Source: Haemophilus pittmaniae (GTDB lineage Bacteria; Pseudomonadota; Gammaproteobacteria; Enterobacterales; Pasteurellaceae). Taken from it: a stretch of 64,000 nucleotides of DNA. The stretch covers positions 1,736,001-1,800,000 of the forward strand of contig NZ_LT906463.1 of assembly GCF_900186995.1 (NCBI RefSeq). Direction: 5' to 3'. The translations under genes were made by a program, and so were the position numbers. Of this stretch, positions 27,463 to 63,825 are shown one piece after another (the stretch's first letter is position 1; every line of letters begins with the position of its first letter). The notes beneath the pieces are model-generated. The model was not told the DNA's origin. It made no database searches and saw only the letters and a list, made by a program, of their open reading frames with translations.

Positions 27463-28647
27463 TTAAAACATTCTCGGGCCACGCATTGAATTGCCAACCT
27501 GTTCACCGGCAACCACTTGAGAAACAATTACTTTTTCCCCTTCTTGTAAGCCAGATTTGACTTCGCTTTGAATATCATTTTGTACGCCAACTTCTACGCT
27601 ACGTTGCTCTACCTGATTATTCTCTTTTAGAACATTTACGAACGTTTTACCGTTTTGTTTTTGGATAGCCATATTGGGAACCAATAACACATCCGTTACA
27701 TTAGCAATTTCAATATTATTTTCTGTTGTCATCCCAATCCGCAGAATACGATCCGGATTATCAATTAGCACATTTGCGTAATAATAGATTGCCGATGTAG
27801 ATGAACTACTTGAACTACTGCTAGAAGAACTCGATGAAGAACTGCTGTCGCTAGTGGTTGTGTCTGCCGGATCAACAGAATCAATCACTGAGTGATAAAC
27901 CGTTTGGCTGTCAGATAGAATGGTAAAACGAACCTTTTGACCGGCTTTAACCTTTGTTATATCACCTTCTGAAATTTCCGGTTTAATTCGCATACGGCTT
28001 AAATCAGCAATAGTCACGATCGTCGGCGTAGTTTGGTTAGCATTAACTGTTTGCCCTTCAGAAACAGGTACAGCGACAATAGTCCCATCCATTGGTGCTG
28101 TAATCTTAGTATAGCCAACATTGGTTTCTGCTGTATTTACTTCAATTTCAGCCTGTTTGATGGATTCTTTTAAGGCATCCATTTCTGATTTTGCTGCATC
28201 CAGCGTATTTTTAGATGAATTGAGTTCGTCAAGAGAAAGGGCTTTTTGACTGTAAAGCTTGACATAGCGGTTGTATGCGGAAAGAGCCACATTATATGCG
28301 GTTTCCTTAGCCTTTAATTGAGCCTGATAACTTGCTAATACTGCTTTACTGGTGTTTAGCGTGTTTATTTGAGTCGTGGAATCAATGTCTGCAATGAGAT
28401 CGCCTTTTGTTACATCCTGTCCCAATTTAATATAGAGCTTCGTAATCTTACCAGAAACCTGTGCGCCCACATCAACTTCGTTCACACTTTCAATGGAACC
28501 ATTTGCAATAACATTTTTTTCAATATTGCCACGGGTGACGGCTTCCGTTAAATAACGAGTTTGTTGTTTACTATCATCTGTCCAGAAGAAATAAGCAATT
28601 CCAAGAATAAGTACAATACCGAGTAATAAAAATAACTTTTTTTTCAT
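27463..28647 (-). CDS. macA: MacA-type periplasmic adaptor with a 16-serine insert
   Basis: Membrane-fusion protein linking MacB to the outer-membrane channel. One N-terminal anchor helix (LFLLLGIVLILGIAYFFW) is followed by lipoyl-like, coiled-coil hairpin and beta-barrel domains (VDVGAQVSGKITKLYIK, GYTKITAPMDGTIV). It has 394 residues. Near residues 268-285 there is a run of 16 serines encoded by mixed codons (AGC, AGT, TCT, TCA, TCG), inserted in the beta-barrel region. It is the first gene of the operon. Confidence 0.93.
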   Translation of the reverse strand: MKKKLFLLLGIVLILGIAYFFWTDDSKQQTRYLTEAVTRGNIEKNVIANGSIESVNEVDVGAQVSGKITKLYIKLGQDVTKGDLIADIDSTTQINTLNTSKAVLASYQAQLKAKETAYNVALSAYNRYVKLYSQKALSLDELNSSKNTLDAAKSEMDALKESIKQAEIEVNTAETNVGYTKITAPMDGTIVAVPVSEGQTVNANQTTPTIVTIADLSRMRIKPEISEGDITKVKAGQKVRFTILSDSQTVYHSVIDSVDPADTTTSDSSSSSSSSSSSSSSSSTSAIYYYANVLIDNPDRILRIGMTTENNIEIANVTDVLLVPNMAIQKQNGKTFVNVLKENNQVEQRSVEVGVQNDIQSEVKSGLQEGEKVIVSQVVAGEQVGNSMRGPRMF

Positions 28648-28717: not shown

Positions 28718-28805
28718 TACTAACCATCCCCATAGATAATGGGATATACCCAAGGCAACTCCATTAAATTAAAGTTTCTTTGCTAAGAATTCCTATAAAA
28801 CAAGA

Positions 28806-29515
28806 GGCTGACGTAGATTAGCTCTAAATACCACACCATTTTCGCAATGTTTTAAGTTGTTTTTTTGGTGCTCCAAAGTTAAACCGAAATTCACATTCCT
28901 TCAATAATAAAGGAAAGTTTTTTCGGTCGATGCTATTATATTTTCGGAGTATTCTCTTCGCCTGACTTCCAAAATTTTCTATTCCATTTATGTGGTTTTG
29001 TTTCACCGCAAATAATTCGGAATGATTGATTCGTTCGTGGTGAAATTTGCTCACACCAAGAGCATCATAGCTTCGATAAGTATCGCTATAAACCCAGCTG
29101 TCAGGCTTGATTTTCCTCACAATAACAGGCATTAATGTCTCTGTTCTGGTATTTTCTACCACCACCGTAAATACTTTTCCTTGTCGCTTTAACAAACCGA
29201 ATACAGCAACTTTTCCTGCTGCGCCTTGACCTCGTTTTCCTTTATGATGACCGCCAAAATAACTTTCATCAAGCTCAATTTAACCATCAAAAACCTCATC
29301 GGCTTCAAGGGCTAAATGATAGCTAATGACTTCACGAATTTTTCTGTAAAACAAAATCCCTGAATTGGCTTGGATACCGAGTAAATCAGCCGCTGCTTGG
29401 GCTGTAACTTCTAATACAAAAAATTCAAGGAGCTTATTTTGTATAAATTTCTTTAATTTACAATGAGTTATATTCATTTTTATATGACTAGCACACTTGC
29501 TAATCTACGTCAGCC
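28806..29515 (-). mobile_element. IS1016-type insertion sequence (IS1595 family), inactivated
   Basis: Element of about 710 bases bounded by perfect 17-base terminal inverted repeats: GGCTGACGTAGATTAGC (28806-28822) and its complement (29499-29515). It contains one transposase gene broken by a nonsense codon. I see no matching 8-base direct repeats at the ends, which suggests a later rearrangement or deletion beside it. Confidence 0.88.
28824..29477 (-). pseudogene. IS1016 transposase with a premature stop
   Basis: A 217-codon frame intact except for TAA at 29280-29282, where family members read CAA (in DGQIELDE). The frame continues unchanged on the other side (IELDESYFGGHHKGKRG, then SDTYRSYD and HINGIENF). 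The conserved tryptophan after ENF is also changed to Gly. The ISXO2-like DDE domain is recognisable. It is unable to move itself unless helped by another copy. Confidence 0.9.
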
Positions 29516-29517
29516 CC

Positions 29518-29640
29518 AATTTTATTGGCGCTGATAGAACTGCAGGACATCATGAAGCTGAATTTGATATTGATGAAAAACAATTACTAACAGGCGTAAA
29601 TATTTATACTAAATTGTTGCAGAATTTGAGTACATCATGA
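29518..29640 (+). pseudogene. Remnant: C-terminal 39 codons of an M20-family amidohydrolase
   Basis: Directly at the IS1016 edge a plus-strand frame opens without a start. It reads NFIGADRTAGHHEAEFDIDE and then LTGVNIYTKLLQNL and a stop. This is the C-terminal end of M20 aminoacylase/hippurate-hydrolase-like enzymes (Ala-Gly-His-His-x-x-x-Phe-x-Asp-x-Glu). The upstream 350 or so codons are absent, replaced by the IS element. Confidence 0.75.
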
Positions 29641-29695
29641 GCTGTGGACTTGAGAGAATCAGTAAAGTGATATGAAATGTGCTGATTGAAACAAT

Positions 29696-29727
29696 AAAGG
29701 CAGACTATTTGTCTGCCTTTCGTTTTT
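29696..29727. terminator. Terminator between gltA and the amidohydrolase remnant
   Basis: AAAGGCAGAC (29696-29705) pairs with GTCTGCCTTT (29711-29720) across five bases. T runs lie on the right and A/T-rich sequence on the left, so it can end gltA on the minus strand. Confidence 0.85.
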
Positions 29728-29739
29728 GTTATTTGATAA

Positions 29740-31017
29740 TTATGATTTATCCATCGCTGGAAAGTCACGTTCTGTGTAACCTGTGTAGATTTGACGTGGA
29801 CGTACAATTTTGAAGTTCCCTTGTTTGTACATTTCTTTCCAGTGCGCAATCCAGCCAACAGTTCTCGCAAGCGCGAACATAACGGTAAACATCGATGTTG
29901 GAATTCCGATAGCTTTTAATACAATACCAGAATAGAAATCCACATTTGGATAAAGTTTATGTTCGATAAAATATGGATCATTCAAGGCGATACGCTCTAA
30001 TTCAATAGCAACATCAAATAATGGATTTTTAATGTTCAATTCTTTTAATACTTCATGGCAGGTTTCGCGCATTACTTTCGCACGTGGGTCGTAGTTTTTA
30101 TATACACGGTGCCCGAATCCCATTAAACGGAATGGATCATTTTTATCTTTTGCTCGAGCAATAAATTCAGGGATACGATCGACTGTACCAATTTCTTCTA
30201 ACATATTAATACACGCCTCATTAGCACCGCCATGTGCCGGTCCCCAAAGCGATGCAATTCCCGCTGCAATACAAGCGAATGGGTTAGCACCAGAAGAAGC
30301 CGCTGTACGTACAGTCGATGTGGATGCATTCTGTTCGTGATCAGCGTGTAGAATAAAAATTTTATCTAATGCACGTTCTAGAACTGGGTTAACGACATAA
30401 GGCTCGCATGGTGTGGCAAACATCATATATAAGAAATTCCCTGCATATGACAAATGATTTTGCGGGAACATAAACGGTTGCCCAATAGAATATTTGTAAC
30501 ACATTGCCGCTAAGGTTGGCACTTTAGCGAGTAAACGAATAGCAGTTAGCTCTCGGTGAGCTTCATTTTTTACATCGATAGAATCGTGATAGAACGCAGC
30601 CAAGGCTCCACTTACCCCACACATAACAGCCATTGGATGCGAGTCGCGACGGAAACCTTGGAAGAATTTAGTTAATTGCTCATGAACCAACGTATGGCTG
30701 CGTACTAATCTACTGAAATCTACATACTGCTCTTTTGTCGGACGTTCACCAAAGAGTAATAAGTAACTGATTTCTAAGTAATCTCCATTAGCAGCTAGTT
30801 GATCTATAGGGTATCCGCGATAAAGTAATACACCATTATCACCGTCAACATATGTAATTTCCGATTCGCATACGGCAGTAGAAACTAAACCGGGGTCATA
30901 GGCAAAGAGTTTATTTTGCGTTAATGGACGGATATCAACGGCTTCGTAGCCTAATGAGCCCTTGTAAACGTTAAGCTCATAGGAATTATCATTTATTGTT
31001 AGCGTTGCGTTTGCCAT
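29740..31017 (-). CDS. gltA: Citrate synthase (type II)
   Basis: Condenses oxaloacetate and acetyl-CoA to citrate. It has 425 residues, the length of the hexameric, NADH-controlled enzymes. The active-site regions [16 protein letters not shown] and [18 protein letters not shown] are intact. It is divergent from icd-acnB across a 268-base control region, so the three steps from acetyl-CoA to 2-oxoglutarate are encoded together. AGGAGGAC before the ATG is a strong ribosome site. Confidence 0.97.
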
Positions 31018-31185
31018 ATCGTCCTCCTGTTGTGAGATATTTTAGAATTTTTGGATATGTATATTCGAACTTAGCACTATTTAAATTATTTTGGCAATAG
31101 TTTTTTCTAGCAAAATGCTTTCAGTTGAAAAGAATTAATATTTTTTAGATGATATTTAATGTGAGATAGATTTTTTTGTGCGAAG

Positions 31186-31213
31186 TTGTTTTTTTATTTA
31201 AATTCCTGATAAT
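31186..31213 (+). promoter_or_regulatory. Candidate icd promoter
   Basis: -35-like TTGTTT (31186-31191) and -10-like GATAAT (31208-31213) with a 16-base spacer, about 75 bases before the icd ATG. The surrounding 31018-31285 region is very AT-rich and must also carry the gltA promoter. Confidence 0.4.
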
Positions 31214-31285
31214 GTCTAATCAATCCATTCTAATTTGGCGAAAATTATTCACAATGCGCCACACATTAAAATAATAGGAGATTCT

Positions 31286-32533
31286 ATGCAATCCAACGTT
31301 CAAATTCCTCAAGGTGAAAAAATTCAAATTGCCGCTAATGGTTCGCTTCAAGTACCCAATAATCCAATTATTCCTTTTATTGAAGGGGATGGAATTGGTG
31401 TTGATGTGACACCTGCGATGCAAGTAGTTATTAATGCCGCAGTAGAAAAAGCGTATCAAGGTAAACGTAAAATTTCGTGGATGGAAATTTACGCAGGTAG
31501 TAAAGCGAATGAAGTTTATGGTGAAAATACTTGGTTACCTGCTGAAACGCTCGATTTTATTCGTGAATATCATATTGCAATTAAAGGACCATTAATGACA
31601 CCTGTTGGTGGTGGCATTCGTTCTTTAAATGTGGCAATGCGCCAAGGTTTAGACCTGTACAACTGTTTGCGCCCAATCCGTTATTATGACGGCACTCCAA
31701 GCCCGGTGAAACATCCAGAGTTAGTGAATATGGTGATTTTCCGTGAGAACTCTGAAGATATTTATGCTGGCGTGGAATGGGTGGCAGGCTCACCTGAAGC
31801 AAATAAAGTGATCCAATTTTTGCAACAAGAAATGGGCGTGAAAAAAATTCGTTTTACTGAAGATTGCGGTATTGGGATTAAACCTGTTTCCAAACAAGGT
31901 ACACAACGCTTGGTTCGTGCCGCGTTGCAATATGTGATTGATAACGACCGCACTTCGCTTACTTTGGTACATAAAGGTAATATTATGAAATTTACCGAAG
32001 GTGCATTTAAAGAATGGGGCTATCAAGTGGCGCAAGAATTTGGTGCAACCTTAATTGAGCAAGGTCCATGGATGCGTTTAACAAATCCGAATACAGGGCG
32101 CGAGATTGTGATCAAAGATTGCATTGCAGATGCGTTTTTACAGGAAGTGTTATTGCATCCTACTGATTATGATGTGATTGCGACTTTAAATCTCAATGGT
32201 GATTACATTTCTGATGCTTTGGCGGCACAAGTGGGTGGTATTGGCATTTCCCCAGGGGCGAATATTGGCGATGAAGCTGCGATCTTTGAAGCTACTCATG
32301 GTACTGCGCCAAAAATTGCAGGACAAAATAAAGGCAACCCAGGTTCATTAATTTTAAGCGGAGAAATGATGTTACGTCATTTAGGTTGGGTTGAAGCGGC
32401 TGATCTTGTGGTTAAAGCGGTGTCCAAAACTATCGCGGATAAAACCGTTACCTTTGATTTTGCGGAGATGCTTGAAGGAGCGACGTTGCGCTCAACTTCT
32501 GAGTTCGCACAAGATATTGTTGCCAATATGTAA
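31286..32533 (+). CDS. icd: Isocitrate dehydrogenase (NADP)
   Basis: Oxidatively decarboxylates isocitrate to 2-oxoglutarate. It has 415 residues (E. coli 416). I start at the ATG at 31286, which follows AATAGGAG, not the longer upstream frame. The substrate-site serine lies in [17 protein letters not shown], and [18 protein letters not shown] is the C-terminal signature. It holds a reverse uptake word (31947-31955). acnB follows nine bases later. Confidence 0.97.
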
Positions 32534-32542
32534 GGAGTAACT

Positions 32543-35149
32543 ATGTCAGATTTTCTATTAGATTATCAGAAACAAGTTGATGAACGAGCTAAATTAGGTG
32601 TCGTGCCACAACCGTTAAATGCGAAACAAACTGCGCAACTGATAGAATTATTAAAAAATCCACCACAAGGAAAAGAAGCTTATTTATTAGAATTATTTGA
32701 AACTCGCATTCCTGCTGGTGTAGATGAAGCCGCTTATGTGAAAGCATCATTCTTATCTGCGGTAAGCAAAGGGGATGTGGTTTGTTCGTTAATTTCGGCG
32801 GAAAGTGCGGTGAGAATTTTGGGCAAAATGCAAGGTGGTTATAATATTGAGCCACTTTTGACCGCACTTGATGATCCTAAACTTGCACCGATTGCGGCGG
32901 AAGAATTATCTCGCACATTGTTGATGTTTGATAATTTCCATGATGTGCAATCCCGAGCAGAACAAGGTAATGTTTATGCGCAACAAGTTTTGCAATCTTG
33001 GGCAAATGCAGAGTGGTTTACGTCTCGCCCGAAATTAGCCGAAAAATTAACTGTGACTGTGTTTAAAGTGTCAGGGGAAACCAATACAGACGATCTTTCA
33101 CCTGCACAAGATGCGTGGTCACGCCCTGATATTCCATTACACGCCAAAGCGATGTTAAAAATGCCACGTGATGGTATTGAACCCGATGAACCAACTCAAG
33201 TGGGTCCGATTCAACAAATTGAAACCTTAAAACAAAAAGGCTTTCCATTAGCTTATGTGGGCGATGTGGTTGGAACAGGATCGTCACGAAAATCGGCGAC
33301 TAACTCGGTGCTTTGGTTTATGGGCGAAGATATTCCTTATATTCCAAACAAACGCGCAGGCGGTATTGTGTTGGGCGGAAAAATTGCCCCGATTTTCTTT
33401 AATACCTTAGAAGATGCGGGAGCATTGCCGATAGAAGTGGACGTGAGTCACTTAAATATGGGCGATGTCATTGATATTTATCCTTATGCAGGCAAAATTT
33501 GTCGTCATAACACTGATAATGTTCTTGCAGAATTTAGCTTAAAAACGGATGTATTATTAGATGAAGTACGCGCGGGTGGTCGTATTCCACTGATTATCGG
33601 TCGCGGTTTAACGCATAAAGCACGTGTTGCTTTAGGGGTGCCTGAAAGCGAGATCTTTGTTAAACCACAAAATGCGGTGGAAAATCACAAAGGATTTACT
33701 TTAGCGCAAAAAATGGTGGGGCGTGCTTGTGGTGTAGCTGGCATTCGGCCAGGGCAATATTGCGAACCGCGTATGACTTCAGTGGGATCACAAGATACTA
33801 CAGGTCCAATGACACGCGATGAATTAAAAGATTTAGCTTGTTTAGGTTTCTCGGCGGATCTTGTCATGCAGTCTTTCTGCCATACAGCGGCTTATCCAAA
33901 ACCTGTGGATGTGGTCACGCACCATACTTTGCCTGATTTTATTATGAACCGTGACGGCGTGTCCTTGCGCCCTGGGGACGGTGTGATCCACTCATGGCTC
34001 AATCGTATGCTGTTACCAGATACTGTTGGAACAGGCGGCGATTCACATACACGTTTTCCTATTGGAATTTCATTCCCTGCGGGTTCGGGCTTAGTCGCTT
34101 TTGCGGCGGCAACCGGGGTGATGCCATTAGATATGCCGGAATCGGTTTTAGTACGTTTCACAGGTAAAATGCAAGAAGGCATTACCTTACGCGATTTAGT
34201 CCATGCCATTCCATATGTTGCGATTAAACAAGGTTTGCTCACCATTGAAAAGCAAGGTAAGAAAAATATTTTCTCAGGTCGAATTTTGGAAATTGAAGGT
34301 TTGGAAGATTTGAAAGTAGAACAGGCTTTTGAACTTTCCGATGCTTCGGCAGAACGTTCGGCGGCGGCTTGTACCATTAAACTCAACAAAGAACCGATTA
34401 TTGAATATCTCAATTCAAACATTACTTTATTGAAATGGATGATCGCTGAAGGTTATGGTGATGCACGTACACTGGAACGACGTGTCAAAGCAATGGAAAA
34501 TTGGCTTGCTAATCCAACTCTTTTAGAAGCGGATAAAGATGCTGAATATGCAGCAGTGATTGAGATTAATTTAGATGAAATCAACGAGCCGATTGTATGT
34601 GCGCCAAATGATCCTGATGATGCTCGTTTATTATCAGAAGTACAGGGCGATAAGATTGATGAAGTGTTTATCGGATCTTGTATGACCAATATAGGGCATT
34701 TTCGTGCCGCTGGTAAATTACTCAATCAATTCAAAGGAATGATTCCAACCCGTTTATGGGTGGCTCCGCCAACCAAAATGGATGCGGCATTGTTAACCGA
34801 AGAAGGTTATTACAGCATTTATGGCAAAAGTGGTGCGCGTGTCGAAATGCCGGGTTGTTCACTTTGTATGGGCAACCAAGCGCGTGTGGCGGATAAAGCC
34901 ACAGTGGTTTCAACCTCTACGCGGAACTTTCCTAACCGTTTGGGGCAAGGTGCCAATGTGTATCTTGCGTCAGCAGAATTGGCAGCCGTTGCGGCATTGC
35001 TAGGTAAATTACCAACACCTGCGGAATATCTCACTTATGTGGCGGATTTACAGAAAGAAAAAGACGATGTTTATCGTTATATGAATTTCAATGAAATCAG
35101 CACCTATATAAAAAAAGCGAATAATGTGATTTTTCAGCAAGCACTGTAG
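32543..35149 (+). CDS. acnB: Aconitate hydratase AcnB
   Basis: Isomerises citrate to isocitrate through a [4Fe-4S] cluster. It has 868 residues, with the AcnB order: N-terminal HEAT-like domain, then the swivel domain, then the cluster domains. Cluster cysteines lie in [13 protein letters not shown] and [13 protein letters not shown]. It is co-transcribed with icd. Two uptake words (32803-32811 forward and 32861-32869 reverse) sit 50 bases apart inside the gene. An IS3-family element begins 16 bases after the stop. Confidence 0.97.
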
Positions 35150-35195
35150 TGTGAAGCAGCAAAGTGATCTGCCCCCCAAAAGTTGGACAGGTTAG

Positions 35196-36002
35196 TTAAC
35201 TTAAATATTGAGCTCGGTATTGCACTGGGCTCAATCCTTTTAAACCAAGTTTAATTCGTTTTTGGTTGTAATACACTAAATATTCTTCAATTTCAGCCTG
35301 TAATTCAGCAATTGAATGATAACTCCGAGAGTAAAAGCACTCTGATTTTAATATTGCAAAAAAGCTTTCAATCACCGCATTATCGTAGCAATTTCCTCGG
35401 CGACTCATACTTTGCACCGCTTTACCCGCCAACATCTTTACCCATTCCGCCGAGCCATACAATACGCCTTGGTCGCTATGAATAATCGGGCATTCTGTCG
35501 GTTTAATCCTACTAAGCCCTTGTTCTAACATCTTTTTTACCAATGAAAACTTCGGGCGTGTCGCAAAGTTATAAGCAATAACTTCTCGGTTAGCCAAGTC
35601 CATCAGCGGTGAAAAATAAAGCTTTTCTTGCCCAACCTGAAATTCCGTGACATCCGTTACCCATTTTTGATTGAGTGCCGTTGCTGTAAAATCACGATTC
35701 AGTAAATTCGGGGCAATATGCGATGTTTTTCCTCGTTTTCCATGTCTTTTCTTGCGTAAAATGGAATGAATGCCTAACTCGTTCATCAGCTGTAACACCG
35801 TTTTATGATTCAAATGGAAGCCCCTTTGGCGTAATTTGAGTGTCATTGGGCGATAACCATCTCGGTTTTTGTTCTTTTTATACAGCGATAAGATAGCCTC
35901 TTTAGCTTCGTGATAATTTCGCTTAATCTCTTTATAGTAAAAGCTTGAGCAAGGCATTTTAGCCACACGAAGTAAATCATTTAATGCATGGTTTAGCTTC
36001 AA
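35196..36002 (-). CDS. IS3-family transposase OrfB (DDE integrase core)
   Basis: Integrase-fold catalytic half of the transposase, 268 residues. The DDE triad is readable: Asp in NQKWVTDVTEF, Asp in IIHSDQGVLYG and Glu in NAVIESFFAILKSE. It lies in the -1 frame relative to OrfA and has only a TTG at the overlap. It is therefore most likely expressed as an OrfAB fusion by frameshifting in the A-rich run near 36010-36025. Confidence 0.93.
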   Translation of the reverse strand: MKLNHALNDLLRVAKMPCSSFYYKEIKRNYHEAKEAILSLYKKNKNRDGYRPMTLKLRQRGFHLNHKTVLQLMNELGIHSILRKKRHGKRGKTSHIAPNLLNRDFTATALNQKWVTDVTEFQVGQEKLYFSPLMDLANREVIAYNFATRPKFSLVKKMLEQGLSRIKPTECPIIHSDQGVLYGSAEWVKMLAGKAVQSMSRRGNCYDNAVIESFFAILKSECFYSRSYHSIAELQAEIEEYLVYYNQKRIKLGLKGLSPVQYRAQYLS

Positions 36003-36373
36003 TCTTTCAATAATTTTTCTTTTTTCTGTCGTTGTTTTTGACGGTCGAGCGCCTCCAACTCCTTTAGATAAGCAATCTCCGCTCGAGCCAAGGCGAGCTC
36101 TCGCTGCAGCTTTTTAAACGCTTTAAGTGAAAAATCTGTGGTTTCTGGAATTTCAATGTCTTTCTTTTTCATCTTTGGCTTCACTATTTTCGGTATTTGA
36201 AGGTTTGTATCAGGCGATTTTACGCCATCAAGCCCTCTTTCCCGAAATGCTTTTAGCCAATAAATGATGAGAGCGTGGGAAATTTGATGAAGCTTAGCCA
36301 CCTCACGGATACCATAATCCTGTTCGATGACGAGTATGATAATTTTCAAACGAAATTGATAAGAGTAGGACAT
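35999..36373 (-). CDS. IS3-family OrfA (helix-turn-helix)
   Basis: DNA-binding half, 124 residues from MSYSYQFRLKII (an upstream in-frame ATG at 36382 is also possible). HTH region YGIREVAKLHQISHALIIYWLKAF, then a basic stretch and a leucine-rich coiled coil (LKAFKKLQRELALARAEIAYLKELEAL). Its stop overlaps the OrfB frame. Confidence 0.9.
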   Translation of the reverse strand: MSYSYQFRLKIIILVIEQDYGIREVAKLHQISHALIIYWLKAFRERGLDGVKSPDTNLQIPKIVKPKMKKKDIEIPETTDFSLKAFKKLQRELALARAEIAYLKELEALDRQKQRQKKEKLLKD

Positions 36374-36535
36374 AATCTGCACCTCAAATTAGGTGTACAG
36401 GTTTTGGGGGGCAGATCATTTTTTGTTAAAAGTTGCATTTTCTCTGTTTGTGGTTAAAACACACACTTCTTTGTCATCGCTGAATTAGAGATCGGCGAAT
36501 GATGTATTATTAACTTACTTTGTTAGGAGTAAAAA

Positions 36536-36700
36536 ATGTCTCTAAGCGTAGAACAAAAAGCTGCAATCGTTGCAGAATTCGGTCGTGATGCGAAAGATAC
36601 TGGTTCATCAGAAATTCAAGTCGCATTATTAACTGCTCAAATCAACCACCTTCAAGGTCACTTTGCTGAGCATAAAAAAACTAATTTCCGGAGAAATTAG
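36536..36700 (+). pseudogene. rpsO: Truncated ribosomal protein S15 gene (5' 48 codons)
   Basis: Begins with a strong site (TTAGGAG) and ATG. It reads [20 protein letters not shown] and continues to [11 protein letters not shown], exactly the first 48 residues of S15. The frame then runs into six unrelated codons (TNFRRN) and a stop, so about 40 residues of the essential rRNA-binding C-terminal half are missing. The foreign part is the sspB terminator. A complete rpsO must exist elsewhere. It lies 117 bases from the IS3 element. Confidence 0.9.
36674..36700 (-). terminator. sspB terminator, fused to the rpsO fragment
   Basis: CTAATTTC (36681-36688) pairs with GAAATTAG (36693-36700); on the minus strand the stem is followed by seven T residues (complement of 36674-36680). 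This is a textbook terminator for sspB. The same A run is where S15 homology stops, so it marks the junction. Confidence 0.85.
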
Positions 36701-36711
36701 GTTTTGTGACT

Positions 36712-37152
36712 TTAATCCACAATTCGTAAATGAGATGGTGATTTTGGAGTAGCTGATTTAGGTTTATCAACAGCTTGGCTAAAGTTTGTTGGTTGTTCAT
36801 CTTGTAGTGGCTGATTTAATTCATCATAAATAGCCTCCCCTTCAAACATTACGCCATCCCCATTTTCTCTTGCATAAATTGCAAGCGCTGCTCCCATTGG
36901 GATATAAAGCTCTCTAGCAACACCTTTAAAACGGGCATTAAATTGAATGAAATCATTGGTTAATTGTAAATTGCCGGTAGCACTCGGTGAAAGATTCAAC
37001 ACAATCTGTCCATCTTTCACATATTCCATAGGCACATTAACGCCATAATAGGTCGCATCAACTACTAAATAAGGCGTGAAATTACAATCCAGCAACCAAT
37101 CGTAATAAGCTCGCAGTAAGTAGGGGCGTTTGGCCGGTAATTTAGTTGTCAT
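36712..37152 (-). CDS. sspB: ClpXP adaptor / stringent starvation protein B
   Basis: Delivers ssrA-tagged proteins to the ClpXP protease. It has 146 residues. The folded domain reads KRPYLLRAYYDWLLDCNFTPYLVVDA, and the C-terminal tail (PKSPSHLRIVD) is the ClpX-docking module, separated by a Pro/Ser/Lys-rich linker. Its start overlaps the sspA stop by one base, the conserved sspAB operon. Confidence 0.95.
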   Translation of the reverse strand: MTTKLPAKRPYLLRAYYDWLLDCNFTPYLVVDATYYGVNVPMEYVKDGQIVLNLSPSATGNLQLTNDFIQFNARFKGVARELYIPMGAALAIYARENGDGVMFEGEAIYDELNQPLQDEQPTNFSQAVDKPKSATPKSPSHLRIVD

Positions 37153-42718: not shown

Positions 42719-42758
42719 GTTAGCCATATCAGAGGAAGCGCATTGCGTATTTTCGTAA

Positions 42759-42842
42759 AACGCCCCTTTGAAAATTGGAGTTTTCTCAAAAACAGCATCT
42801 AAGTCATTGATTTTATTAGTGTTGATTAAAAAAGTTTTTTCA
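42759..42842 (+). repeat. Dispersed intergenic palindromic element, copy 7
   Basis: AAACGCCCC, then TTTGAAAATTGGAGTTTTC and an A-rich middle, to the core TCATTGATTTTATTAG (about 42804-42819). It lies between asnS and can, 20 bases before the can ATG, so it may affect can translation or transcription. Confidence 0.75.
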
Positions 42843-61011: not shown

Positions 61012-63825
61012 TTAGAATGAAAGTGCATCTGCGACTAATTGTTTCTGTTGTTGGGTATGTAATGAAACATAGCCTACGGCTGGAGAGGCTGATGCTGGAC
61101 GGCCGGCGTATTTCAATTTCACACCATCAGGCAAAGAGCTTTCAAAGTTATGTTTACTACAATACCAAGCCCCTTGGTTAAGTGGCTCTTCTTGACACCA
61201 AACAAAATCAGTTACATGGGAATAAGGCTCTAACACCGCTTTTACATCATCATGAGGATAAGGGTATAGCTGTTCAATTCGAATAATCGCAACATCCTGT
61301 TGTGCATTTGCTCGGCGTTGCTCCAATAAATCGTAATACACTTTACCTGCACAAAGCACAACTCGTTTAACTTTTTTCGGATCCAACGGGTCAACTTCAC
61401 CAATGACGTTCTGGAATTCACCGTTAATTAATTCATCCATTGAGGAAACAGCTAACGGATGACGTAACAAGGATTTTGGTGAAATACCAATTAGTGGACG
61501 TCGCATCTTACGTAAGAATTGACGACGTAACATGTGGTAAACCTGCGCTGGTGTAGATGGAATACACACCTGCATATTTTGTTGTGCACAAAGTTGCAAA
61601 TAGCGTTCTAAACGGGCTGAGGAGTGTTCCGGACCTTGGCCTTCATAGCCATGTGGCAATAACATAACCAAACCGCACATTCTGCCCCATTTTTGTTCAC
61701 CGGAACTGATAAATTGGTCAATTACGATCTGAGCACCATTGGCAAAATCACCAAATTGAGCCTCCCAAATCGTTAAGGTTTTAGGATCGGTAGTGGCATA
61801 ACCATACTCAAATGCTAATACGGATTCTTCTGAAAGCACCGAATCCCATACTTCAAAATGACCTTGATTCGCATGTAGATGTGTTAACGGAACATAACCT
61901 GTACCATCGTTTTGGTTATGAACTACGGCATGACGATGGAAGAATGTTCCTCGTCCCGCATCTTCTCCAGATAACCGTACGTTAGCTCCTTCATCAAGTA
62001 AAGTGGCATAAGCCATTGTTTCTGCCATCCCCCAATCCAGTAATTTATCTCCGGCAGCCATTGCTTTGCGATCCTCATAGATTTTTTCTACACGAGGATG
62101 AGCACGCAACGCATCTGGATATTCAGCAACACGTTTTGCCAAAGTCACAAAACGTTCTTTAGGGAAAGCGGCATGATAAGGAGAAGTCCAATCATGATCG
62201 AGATATTGCAACCAATCCATTTTAGCCACATCCATCTCCCGCCATTCGGCAACCACACGCTCACCGTTATCTAAAGCATCGCGATACAAGTTCATCATTT
62301 CTGTCACTTCTGACTCAGTGATAACACCTTCGGCGATTAAACGATCTGCATATACTTTGCGTGGCGTTGGATGTTTTTTGATAATACCGTACATCATTGG
62401 TTGAGTTGCCAATGGCTCGTCCGCCTCATTATGTCCATGACGACGATAAGAAATTAAATCAATAAAAATATCCCGTTTAAATAATGTCCGGTATTCCACA
62501 GCCATTCTTGCTGCAAAAGCCACCGCTTCAGGATCATCACCATTTACATGGATAATTGGCGCCTGAATCATTTTTGCAATATCCGTACAATATTCCGTAG
62601 AACGAGTATCACGTGGGTTAGAAGTGGTAAAACCAATTTGGTTATTGATCACAATACGTATCGTACCACCGACGGAATAACCCCGAGTATTGGATAAATT
62701 AAGGGTTTCCTGCACGATACCTTGTCCTGCAACTGCTGAATCACCATGTACCGTAACTGCTAAAACACGATTACGATCAGCATCATTATGTTTAGTTTGG
62801 CGAGCGCGTACCGCTCCAGCAACTACCGGACTGACAATTTCTAGGTGAGATGGGTTAAATGCCAAAGTTAAATGCATTTTACGTTCATCGCCCAAAGCGA
62901 AATCCGATGAGAAACCTTGGTGATATTTCACATCCCCTGTACGTTCCCCTGTCGTATGTTTACCGGCAAATTCATCAAATAAATCCTCAGGACGTTTACC
63001 TAAGACATTCACCAACATATTCAAACGTCCACGGTGCGCCATACCAAACACAACGTCGGTAACGCCTTGCTGTCCCGAATGACGAATGATTTCTTTCACC
63101 AATGGAATAAAGGCATCACTCCCCTCTAGCGAAAAACGTTTTGCTCCCGGGAATTTTGCGCCAAGATAACGCTCAAGCCCATCCGCTGCCGTCAATTCAT
63201 TTAAGAGATTAATTTTTTCCTCTTTACTGAATAATGGTTTTTCTAAACGGCTTTCCAACTTTCCTTGTAACCAAAGTTTTTGTTCCATATCCTGCACATG
63301 CATAAATTCCAAACCAATTGAGCCACAATAGGTCTCTTTTAACATGTGGGCCAATTCACCTAATTTAATCGTATCGCGTTTATAGACGTAATGGTTGATA
63401 TTAAAAGTTTCATCAAGATCTTGTTCTGTTAGGCCATGATAATGGTAATCCAATTCAGGCACATGGGAGGTTTTCCAACGGTAGTAATTGAGGGGATCTA
63501 AATGGGCCTCGAGGTGGCCGCGAAAGCGATAAGCGTTAATAAATTGTAAAACTTTTACCAATTTCGCGCTGGCTTCAGGATCGATTACCGTCACAGTTTC
63601 ACTTGAGTGCTCGCGAGCCAAACGGCGGAAATAATCACGCACCGGCGAATGTGGTTGTTCAACTGTGGTTGATACCTTTGGTAATGCATCAAAAATCGCA
63701 CGCCAATCAGCATCAATAGAGTCAGGATCGGTTAAATAACTCTCGTACAATTCTTCGATATAAGATTGATTAGCACCACCTAATGCTGTACTGGCTAACC
63801 AGTCATCAAAGGCTTTATATTGCAT
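61012..63825 (-). CDS. sucA: 2-oxoglutarate dehydrogenase E1
   Basis: Thiamine-diphosphate decarboxylase subunit, 937 residues from the ATG at 63825 (MQYKAFDDWLAS), preceded by GAGGGGG; the frame can be extended upstream but without support. Family segments: FRGHLEAHLDPL, FGMAHRGRLNML, INNQIGFTTSNP, NGDDPEAVAFA and RRHGHNEADEP. First gene of sucA-sucB. Confidence 0.97.
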   Translation of the reverse strand: MQYKAFDDWLASTALGGANQSYIEELYESYLTDPDSIDADWRAIFDALPKVSTTVEQPHSPVRDYFRRLAREHSSETVTVIDPEASAKLVKVLQFINAYRFRGHLEAHLDPLNYYRWKTSHVPELDYHYHGLTEQDLDETFNINHYVYKRDTIKLGELAHMLKETYCGSIGLEFMHVQDMEQKLWLQGKLESRLEKPLFSKEEKINLLNELTAADGLERYLGAKFPGAKRFSLEGSDAFIPLVKEIIRHSGQQGVTDVVFGMAHRGRLNMLVNVLGKRPEDLFDEFAGKHTTGERTGDVKYHQGFSSDFALGDERKMHLTLAFNPSHLEIVSPVVAGAVRARQTKHNDADRNRVLAVTVHGDSAVAGQGIVQETLNLSNTRGYSVGGTIRIVINNQIGFTTSNPRDTRSTEYCTDIAKMIQAPIIHVNGDDPEAVAFAARMAVEYRTLFKRDIFIDLISYRRHGHNEADEPLATQPMMYGIIKKHPTPRKVYADRLIAEGVITESEVTEMMNLYRDALDNGERVVAEWREMDVAKMDWLQYLDHDWTSPYHAAFPKERFVTLAKRVAEYPDALRAHPRVEKIYEDRKAMAAGDKLLDWGMAETMAYATLLDEGANVRLSGEDAGRGTFFHRHAVVHNQNDGTGYVPLTHLHANQGHFEVWDSVLSEESVLAFEYGYATTDPKTLTIWEAQFGDFANGAQIVIDQFISSGEQKWGRMCGLVMLLPHGYEGQGPEHSSARLERYLQLCAQQNMQVCIPSTPAQVYHMLRRQFLRKMRRPLIGISPKSLLRHPLAVSSMDELINGEFQNVIGEVDPLDPKKVKRVVLCAGKVYYDLLEQRRANAQQDVAIIRIEQLYPYPHDDVKAVLEPYSHVTDFVWCQEEPLNQGAWYCSKHNFESSLPDGVKLKYAGRPASASPAVGYVSLHTQQQKQLVADALSF

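Follow-up and report, generated by a model that had tools for sequence, protein, structure and literature searches.

We asked how Haemophilus pittmaniae came to carry gltA, icd and acnB, three genes of the tricarboxylic acid (TCA) cycle, at a locus where they are flanked by insertion sequence (IS) elements and gene fragments. The locus lies in a window of 64,000 nucleotides (positions 1736001–1800000 of a genome assembled as one contig of 2,181,355 bases), and all coordinates below are those of the window. We compared it with 10 other species of the host genus (hereafter congeners, one genome per species) and with other members of the family. These included g56, another genus of the family, which comprises G133, G065, G089 and Actinobacillus porcinus, with G106, G117 and G125 as further members. 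G089 was taken as A. porcinus NM319 (locus L109), whose acnB is identical. The comparisons make it very likely that a donor segment of ∼5.9 kb was imported from a species close to G133 and integrated between macA and sspB of the host. The segment would begin with the last codons of an M20 peptidase-family gene, take in gltA, icd and acnB, and stop at codon 48 of rpsO, and the recipient would have been a Haemophilus-like genome, whose compared relatives lack gltA and acnB.

Origin of the gltA–icd–acnB segment

An initial annotation, made from the sequence alone, had described an intact gltA, icd and acnB block with broken genes at both edges and had suggested that it was inserted. The three reading frames are indeed intact, and all score over the NCBIfam equivalog cut-offs. 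From left to right, the interval between the macA-like gene and sspB contains an IS1016-like element, the M20 stub, gltA, icd, acnB, an IS3-family element, the rpsO stub, a run of seven A residues (A7) and a hairpin (Table 1). Both broken edge genes were found as described, the M20 gene with its last 39 codons (39–40) and rpsO with its first 48. However, the M20 stub does not lie on the outer left side, as had been stated, but on the inner side of the IS1016-like element, toward gltA.

Positions 29522–35141 aligned with G133 in one unbroken alignment at 89.4% identity, followed by positions 36422–36679 at 95.4%, and the identity to G133 was fairly even along the block (84–95% per 250 bases). 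At the amino acid level, gltA and icd were 96.5% and 97.3% identical to G133, and acnB was 96.8% identical to G133, G065 and G089. In a family-wide search the next-best acnB after these three (97%) reached 89%, and the acnB of other g56 members was farther away (G106 88%, G117 74%, G125 75%). The order M20-gltA-icd-acnB-rpsO is contiguous in G133, which identifies both edge stubs as donor flanks. In G065, gltA-icd-acnB-rpsO is contiguous and no M20 gene adjoins gltA; in G089, rpsO lies ∼40 kb from the cluster on the same contig. The M20 stub was 95.8% identical (119 bp) to the full M20 gene that adjoins gltA in G133 (Peptidase_M20, E=3.3e-26), while the 40-residue stub gave no Pfam match by itself. 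For the 99-bp spacer between M20 and gltA, identity to G133 was 93.9%. The rpsO stub was 95.4%, 94.6% and 95.3% identical to G133, G065 and G089, respectively, and 89.0% to the host's own native rpsO, 86.0% to G005/G006, 89.0% to G050 and 87.4% to G106; the native rpsO is present and complete elsewhere in the host genome. The gltA-icd-acnB cluster of A. porcinus, G133 and G065 has the same genes in the same divergent arrangement as the host block (94–97% amino acid identity). It is whole in those genomes, whereas in the host, a member of another genus, the ends are cut and the acnB–rpsO spacer is occupied by an IS3-family element. Because the donor genes are whole, the recipient ends are truncated and a complete rpsO exists elsewhere in the recipient, the direction of transfer was from donor to host. 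As the M20 stub and the spacer differ from G133 at only 11 of 217 bases, the transfer appears to be much younger than the split between the host species and its congeners, although these few bases only suggest it.

A congener M20 gene (L250), 83% identical to the stub over 89 bp, prompted the question whether the stub derives from the host's own M20 gene. We rejected this origin: only L074 (G133) among seven loci matched the stub at 95.8%, and only L074 among the five compared matched the following 99 bp well (93.9%).

Could the three genes instead have been inherited vertically, kept here and lost in the rest of the genus while IS elements scrambled their neighbourhood? acnB was detected at E≤1e-100 in 90 of 121 family genomes (own included), so the ancestor probably had acnB. 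Third codon positions argue against retention. Identity between the window and G133 at these positions was 70.3% for gltA, 70.1% for icd and 72.4% for acnB, compared to 56.1% for sspB, 51.4% for sspA, 50.3% for asnS, 46.3% for macB and 41.1% for macA; the same five host genes were 44–61% identical to G005/G006. At the nucleotide level four of the five host genes were nearer to both of these congeners than to any of five donor-side genomes (G133, G065, G089, G106 and G050), with 71–73% versus 66–68% for the macA-like gene and 75–76% versus 66–69% for sspB. The trees conflict in the same way. In the concatenated tree of the block, the window and G133 were split from the other five sequences with a support of 99, while in the concatenated tree of the host genes the window and G005/G006 were split from the other five with a support of 100. 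Single-gene support for the window–G133 split was 90 for gltA and 72 for icd. A larger acnB tree set the window against 40 further sequences, of which three were named copies of genomes already compared; in it the window, G133, G065 and A. porcinus formed a clade with a support of 100. Moreover, retention does not account for a donor-type rpsO 5′ end in a genome with a complete native rpsO elsewhere. On these three grounds we rejected vertical retention, which the present data refute except in the case that evolution of the block was several-fold slower than that of the host genes; we consider its probability close to negligible. No sister genome with the same gene order and without the IS elements was found among the 10 congeners. 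The insertion proposed in the initial annotation is borne out by the foreign identity, the stubs of donor flanks, the conflicting trees and the fact that the 10 congeners lack gltA and acnB.

The absence of gltA and acnB from all 10 congeners would also fit an assembly artefact or contamination. To this we give almost no credence: the genome is a single contig (completeness 100, contamination 0.34), host flanks lie on both sides of the block on that contig, an IS element of congener type lies inside it, and its sequence is 11% off the nearest genome.

Several observations weigh against an import from a G133-like species or limit its reconstruction. Base composition gave no foreign mark, the G+C content at third codon positions being 31.5–33.0 in the block, 26.8–42.7 in host genes and 35.4–37.8 in G133. 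The block is ∼11% diverged from G133, the nearest genome found, and the window branch is 2–3 times longer than that of G133. acnB alone placed the window as sister to the G133–G065–A. porcinus group, with a group support of 52 in the smaller set used for the concatenated trees and 98 in the larger acnB tree; because acnB sets the window beside this whole group (G133–G065–G089), the donor would be an unsampled relative of G133. Among the host genes, asnS did not set congeners and donor-side genomes apart (congeners 80.0–80.2%, donor-side genomes 78.3–81.6%, with G106 at 81.6%). The apparent absence of icd from the congeners was judged from G005 and G006 at the DNA level, no separate icd search having been made, and the sampling covered one genome per species. 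Finally, macA and sspB are apart in all 10 congeners and there is no clean empty site: six congeners have the two genes 22–176 kb from each other and three have them on separate contigs, while in the remaining one the distance is ∼2 Mb, or 226 kb should the contig be circular. The insertion site is therefore also a rearrangement breakpoint.

Table 1. Coordinates of the imported segment, its borders and the host genes discussed
Feature	Position	Strand	Evidence or remark
macA-like host gene, left of import	27463..28647	-	over NCBIfam cut-off for RND_mfp adaptor
IS1016-like element, left import border	28804..29517	-	DDE_Tnp_IS1595 E=1.8e-19
M20 peptidase-family gene 3′ stub, donor left flank	29518..29640	+	match to full gene in G133
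gltA, citrate synthase, 425 aa (amino acids), imported	29740..31017	-	PF00285; NF004126/TIGR01798 over cut-off
gltA-icd divergent intergenic region, imported	31018..31285	.	87.5% to G133 (273 columns)
icd, NADP isocitrate dehydrogenase, 415 aa, imported	31286..32533	+	PF00180; NF005425/TIGR00183 over cut-off
acnB, aconitate hydratase B, 868 aa, imported	32543..35149	+	TIGR00117 over cut-off; PF11791/PF06434/PF00330
IS3-family element (1254 bp), within imported segment	35165..36418	-	HTH_Tnp_1, rve, rve_2, HTH_21
IS3-family OrfB	35196-36002		
IS3-family OrfA	35999-36382		
rpsO leader and first 48 codons, donor right flank	36422..36679	+	codons at 36536-36679
A7 run, right join	36674..36680	.	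A6 then G at same place in G133, G065
Presumed host terminator (hairpin plus tail), 3′ of sspB	36681..36711	.	by eye
sspB, host gene right of import	36712..37152	-	PF04386
sucA, 2-oxoglutarate dehydrogenase E1, host gene, next pathway step	61021..63783	-	TIGR00239 over cut-off

The ATG chosen as the start of icd lies at 31286, while the open reading frame list begins it at a TTG (31235). The gltA–icd intergenic region is presumed to be the promoter region. For the macA-like gene the best NCBIfam model is MacA, which it matched under the cut-off (261 versus 342 bits).

The two joins and the insertion elements

At the left join, the IS1016-like element separates the region upstream of macA from donor M20 sequence. 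The element belongs to the IS1595 family, with an IS1595/ISXO2 transposase domain and inverted terminal repeats. The name IS1016, used in the initial annotation as well, is tentative. It had been called decayed, which holds only in a mild form: the element is full length (∼714 bp) with both terminal repeats, and the transposase carries one in-frame stop. In domain, repeats and length it is like IS1016/IS1595-family elements; the stop is its own and its two flanks are unlike one another. It is single-copy in the host genome at the DNA level, and fragments of it are 74–90% identical to G106 sequences. The ∼95 bases beside it on the macA side gave no good match in any compared sequence. The gene glnS lies beside macA in all 10 congeners (by eye; L096 confirmed by TIGR00440) and ∼170 kb from the macA-like gene in the host.

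The second element belongs to the IS3 family (OrfA with a helix-turn-helix, OrfB with an rve integrase domain, inverted terminal repeats) and is also single-copy in the host genome at the DNA level, except for a 62-bp partial match. It was 94–96% identical to the best full-length copies in the congeners G002, G003, G005 and G008, and no strong match was among the matches listed for G133, G065, G089 and G106. Because it is of congener type and lies inside the imported segment, it probably inserted after the transfer. G133 and G065 carry a paired uptake-signal hairpin in the acnB–rpsO spacer; in the host this hairpin is missing and the IS3-family element stands in its place. The donor-type hairpin was probably lost at this site.

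Does one IS element on each side mean that the two moved the genes as a unit, as a composite transposon? The IS1016-like element lies exactly at the left join, which would fit. The elements are, however, of different types (IS1595 versus IS3), each single-copy but for the 62-bp partial match, and so do not form a matched pair. The flanks of each differ, which agrees with the earlier report that neither shows a target duplication. In addition, the IS3-family element is of congener type, and donor DNA passes it and runs on to the end of the rpsO stub at 36679. Of the earlier view that two IS elements bound the block, the left border therefore stands and the right one does not, since the IS3-family element is no border. 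With unlike elements and an import that reaches beyond one of them, we rejected mobilisation by the IS pair as very unlikely.

The right join contains no IS element. Donor rpsO reads CAT followed by A6, whereas the window has A7, which runs into the hairpin on the sspB side; similarity to the congeners starts again at ∼36712. Microhomology is thus present, but it is weak, as the A-run is short and AT-rich. The suggestion of IS-linked recombination is in agreement with the left join, where the IS1016-like element separates unrelated flanks, and not with the A-run at the right.

How, then, could the segment have been integrated? We propose that the IS1016-like element served as the left anchor and 6–7 bases of the A-run as microhomology on the right, that is, homology-facilitated illegitimate recombination with one-sided anchoring. 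This process is known in naturally transformable bacteria. The host locus resembles it in having one candidate long-homology anchor (the IS1016-like element) and a microhomology join; it differs in that the anchor is putative and the pre-transfer recipient site is not among the sampled genomes. Alternatively, a larger import could have been trimmed later by an IS1016-adjacent deletion and a second deletion. Such an adjacent deletion would leave an IS1016 element without a target duplication, the A-run join would fit a slipped deletion, and the site is a breakpoint relative to the congeners. On the other hand, macA, macB, sspB, sspA and asnS are not donor-like at third positions, and more steps are needed. 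A trimmed larger import is a tentative possibility that concerns only how the ends arose and overlaps with the import of the segment itself; we prefer one-sided anchoring at the IS1016-like element, with trimming nearly as likely.

The gene past sspB differs among the congeners (by eye). In L101 (G003) and L105 (G002) the end of a transposase lies in the sspB terminator beside half of an uptake-signal hairpin, which is altered in L105 (by eye). Insertion or breakage thus appears to have recurred on the downstream side of sspB.

TCA cycle genes in the genus and their possible role

In protein searches gltA had no match in any of the 10 congeners (24 of the 41 genomes searched had one, own included), and acnB gave in all 10 only a partial match of 35–36% over ∼122 residues. 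The host genome has a second weak acnB match of the same kind, which we take to be LeuC. In the DNA search with the whole region, none of gltA, icd and acnB was among the matches listed for G005 and G006. The available parts of two earlier reports describe the three enzymes as all missing in H. influenzae and Actinobacillus pleuropneumoniae (PMC6831627, PMC2175527), and the accessible text of one of them gives the same pattern as in A. pleuropneumoniae for H. influenzae, H. ducreyi and H. somnus (PMC2175527). These species, without the oxidative TCA arm, are like the congeners, which lack gltA and acnB, and unlike the host genome, which has all three genes. The import would be a re-gain after ancestral loss.

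Some family members carry a diverged type of acnB (72–75% amino acid identity; L080/G117 and L081/G125), and G057 and G139 have both types.

We then asked what the segment could provide. H. influenzae requires glutamate. Together, gltA, acnB and icd lead from oxaloacetate and acetyl-CoA to 2-oxoglutarate, which continues to succinyl-CoA or glutamate. sucA scored over its cut-off (TIGR00239) in all 11 genomes of the genus, and all 11 contain a member of the ELFV dehydrogenase family, taken as glutamate dehydrogenase. Because sucA and this putative glutamate dehydrogenase are present, the imported block would give the cell its own supply of 2-oxoglutarate and glutamate, and the route to both looks restored, as far as gene content can tell.

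Private changes of the window, counted where the codons of G133, G065 and G089 agree, were mostly synonymous (synonymous/nonsynonymous: gltA 48/7, icd 67/4, acnB 129/17). The ratio of nonsynonymous to synonymous proportions (pN/pS) was 0.032, 0.015 and 0.035, respectively, in a simple count that treats codons with several changes roughly. The private changes are strongly purified, although part of the measured constraint may predate the transfer. Taken together, it is probable that a single horizontal transfer from an A. porcinus-like species restored a whole arm of central metabolism that the relatives lack, together with its presumed divergent promoter region, and that purifying selection has kept it in a lineage whose uptake signals appear to be eroding. 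The preserved donor edges make the ends of this inter-genus metabolic transfer readable almost to the base. We found no description of the transfer in a literature search (including the available parts of PMC10986600, PMC13076348, PMC6831627 and PMC2175527) that covered subscription journals thinly. Early TCA enzyme loss has been presented as characteristic of the Haemophilus restricted to humans, with the suggestion that lacking aconitase bears on oxidative-stress tolerance (available parts of PMC6831627).

Uptake signals and a dispersed repeat in the host genome

The host contains far fewer copies of the Haemophilus uptake signal, AAGTGCGGT, than its congeners: 20 occur in 235 kb (12 host stretches, L260–L271) and 5 in the 56.8 kb that remain of the window when 29522–36680 is excluded, while 100 kb of five congeners (one 20-kb stretch each) contain 78. 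The 25 host copies nevertheless exceed the 3.0 predicted by a third-order Markov model ∼8-fold. The other type found in the family, ACAAGCGGT, shows no enrichment, with 2 copies in the 235 kb and 1 in the window. The host uptake signals thus behave as if they were eroding. H. ducreyi has been singled out as an exception to a high signal density (available part of PMC1626085), and the accessible portions of three papers (PMC1626085, PMC12616744, PMC6776037) contain no mention of uptake-signal loss in the host species.

Exact AAGTGCGGT also occurs within 45 bp of five of seven congener full-length copies of the IS3-family element, while L219 has it with one mismatch and L195 lacks it, whereas 278 of 5000 random congener points had it nearby. 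The copies examined were L192–L196, L202, L212, L219 and that of the window; of 10 copies above 1.1 kb, 8 were covered as loci. L194 and L195 appear to share a single site. At the window copy no AAGTGCGGT is left, and the site is the place of the donor pair. Insertion of this element thus appears to occur next to uptake signals.

Finally, a dispersed repeat of ∼77 bp, running from AAACGCCCC to AATAAAATCAATG, occurs at 42756–42834 of the window and at at least 36 other places in the host genome. No copy was among the matches listed for the other seven genomes searched. The repeat lies between genes, often directly past terminators (by eye), and may be a small mobile or repetitive extragenic palindromic (REP)-like repeat.

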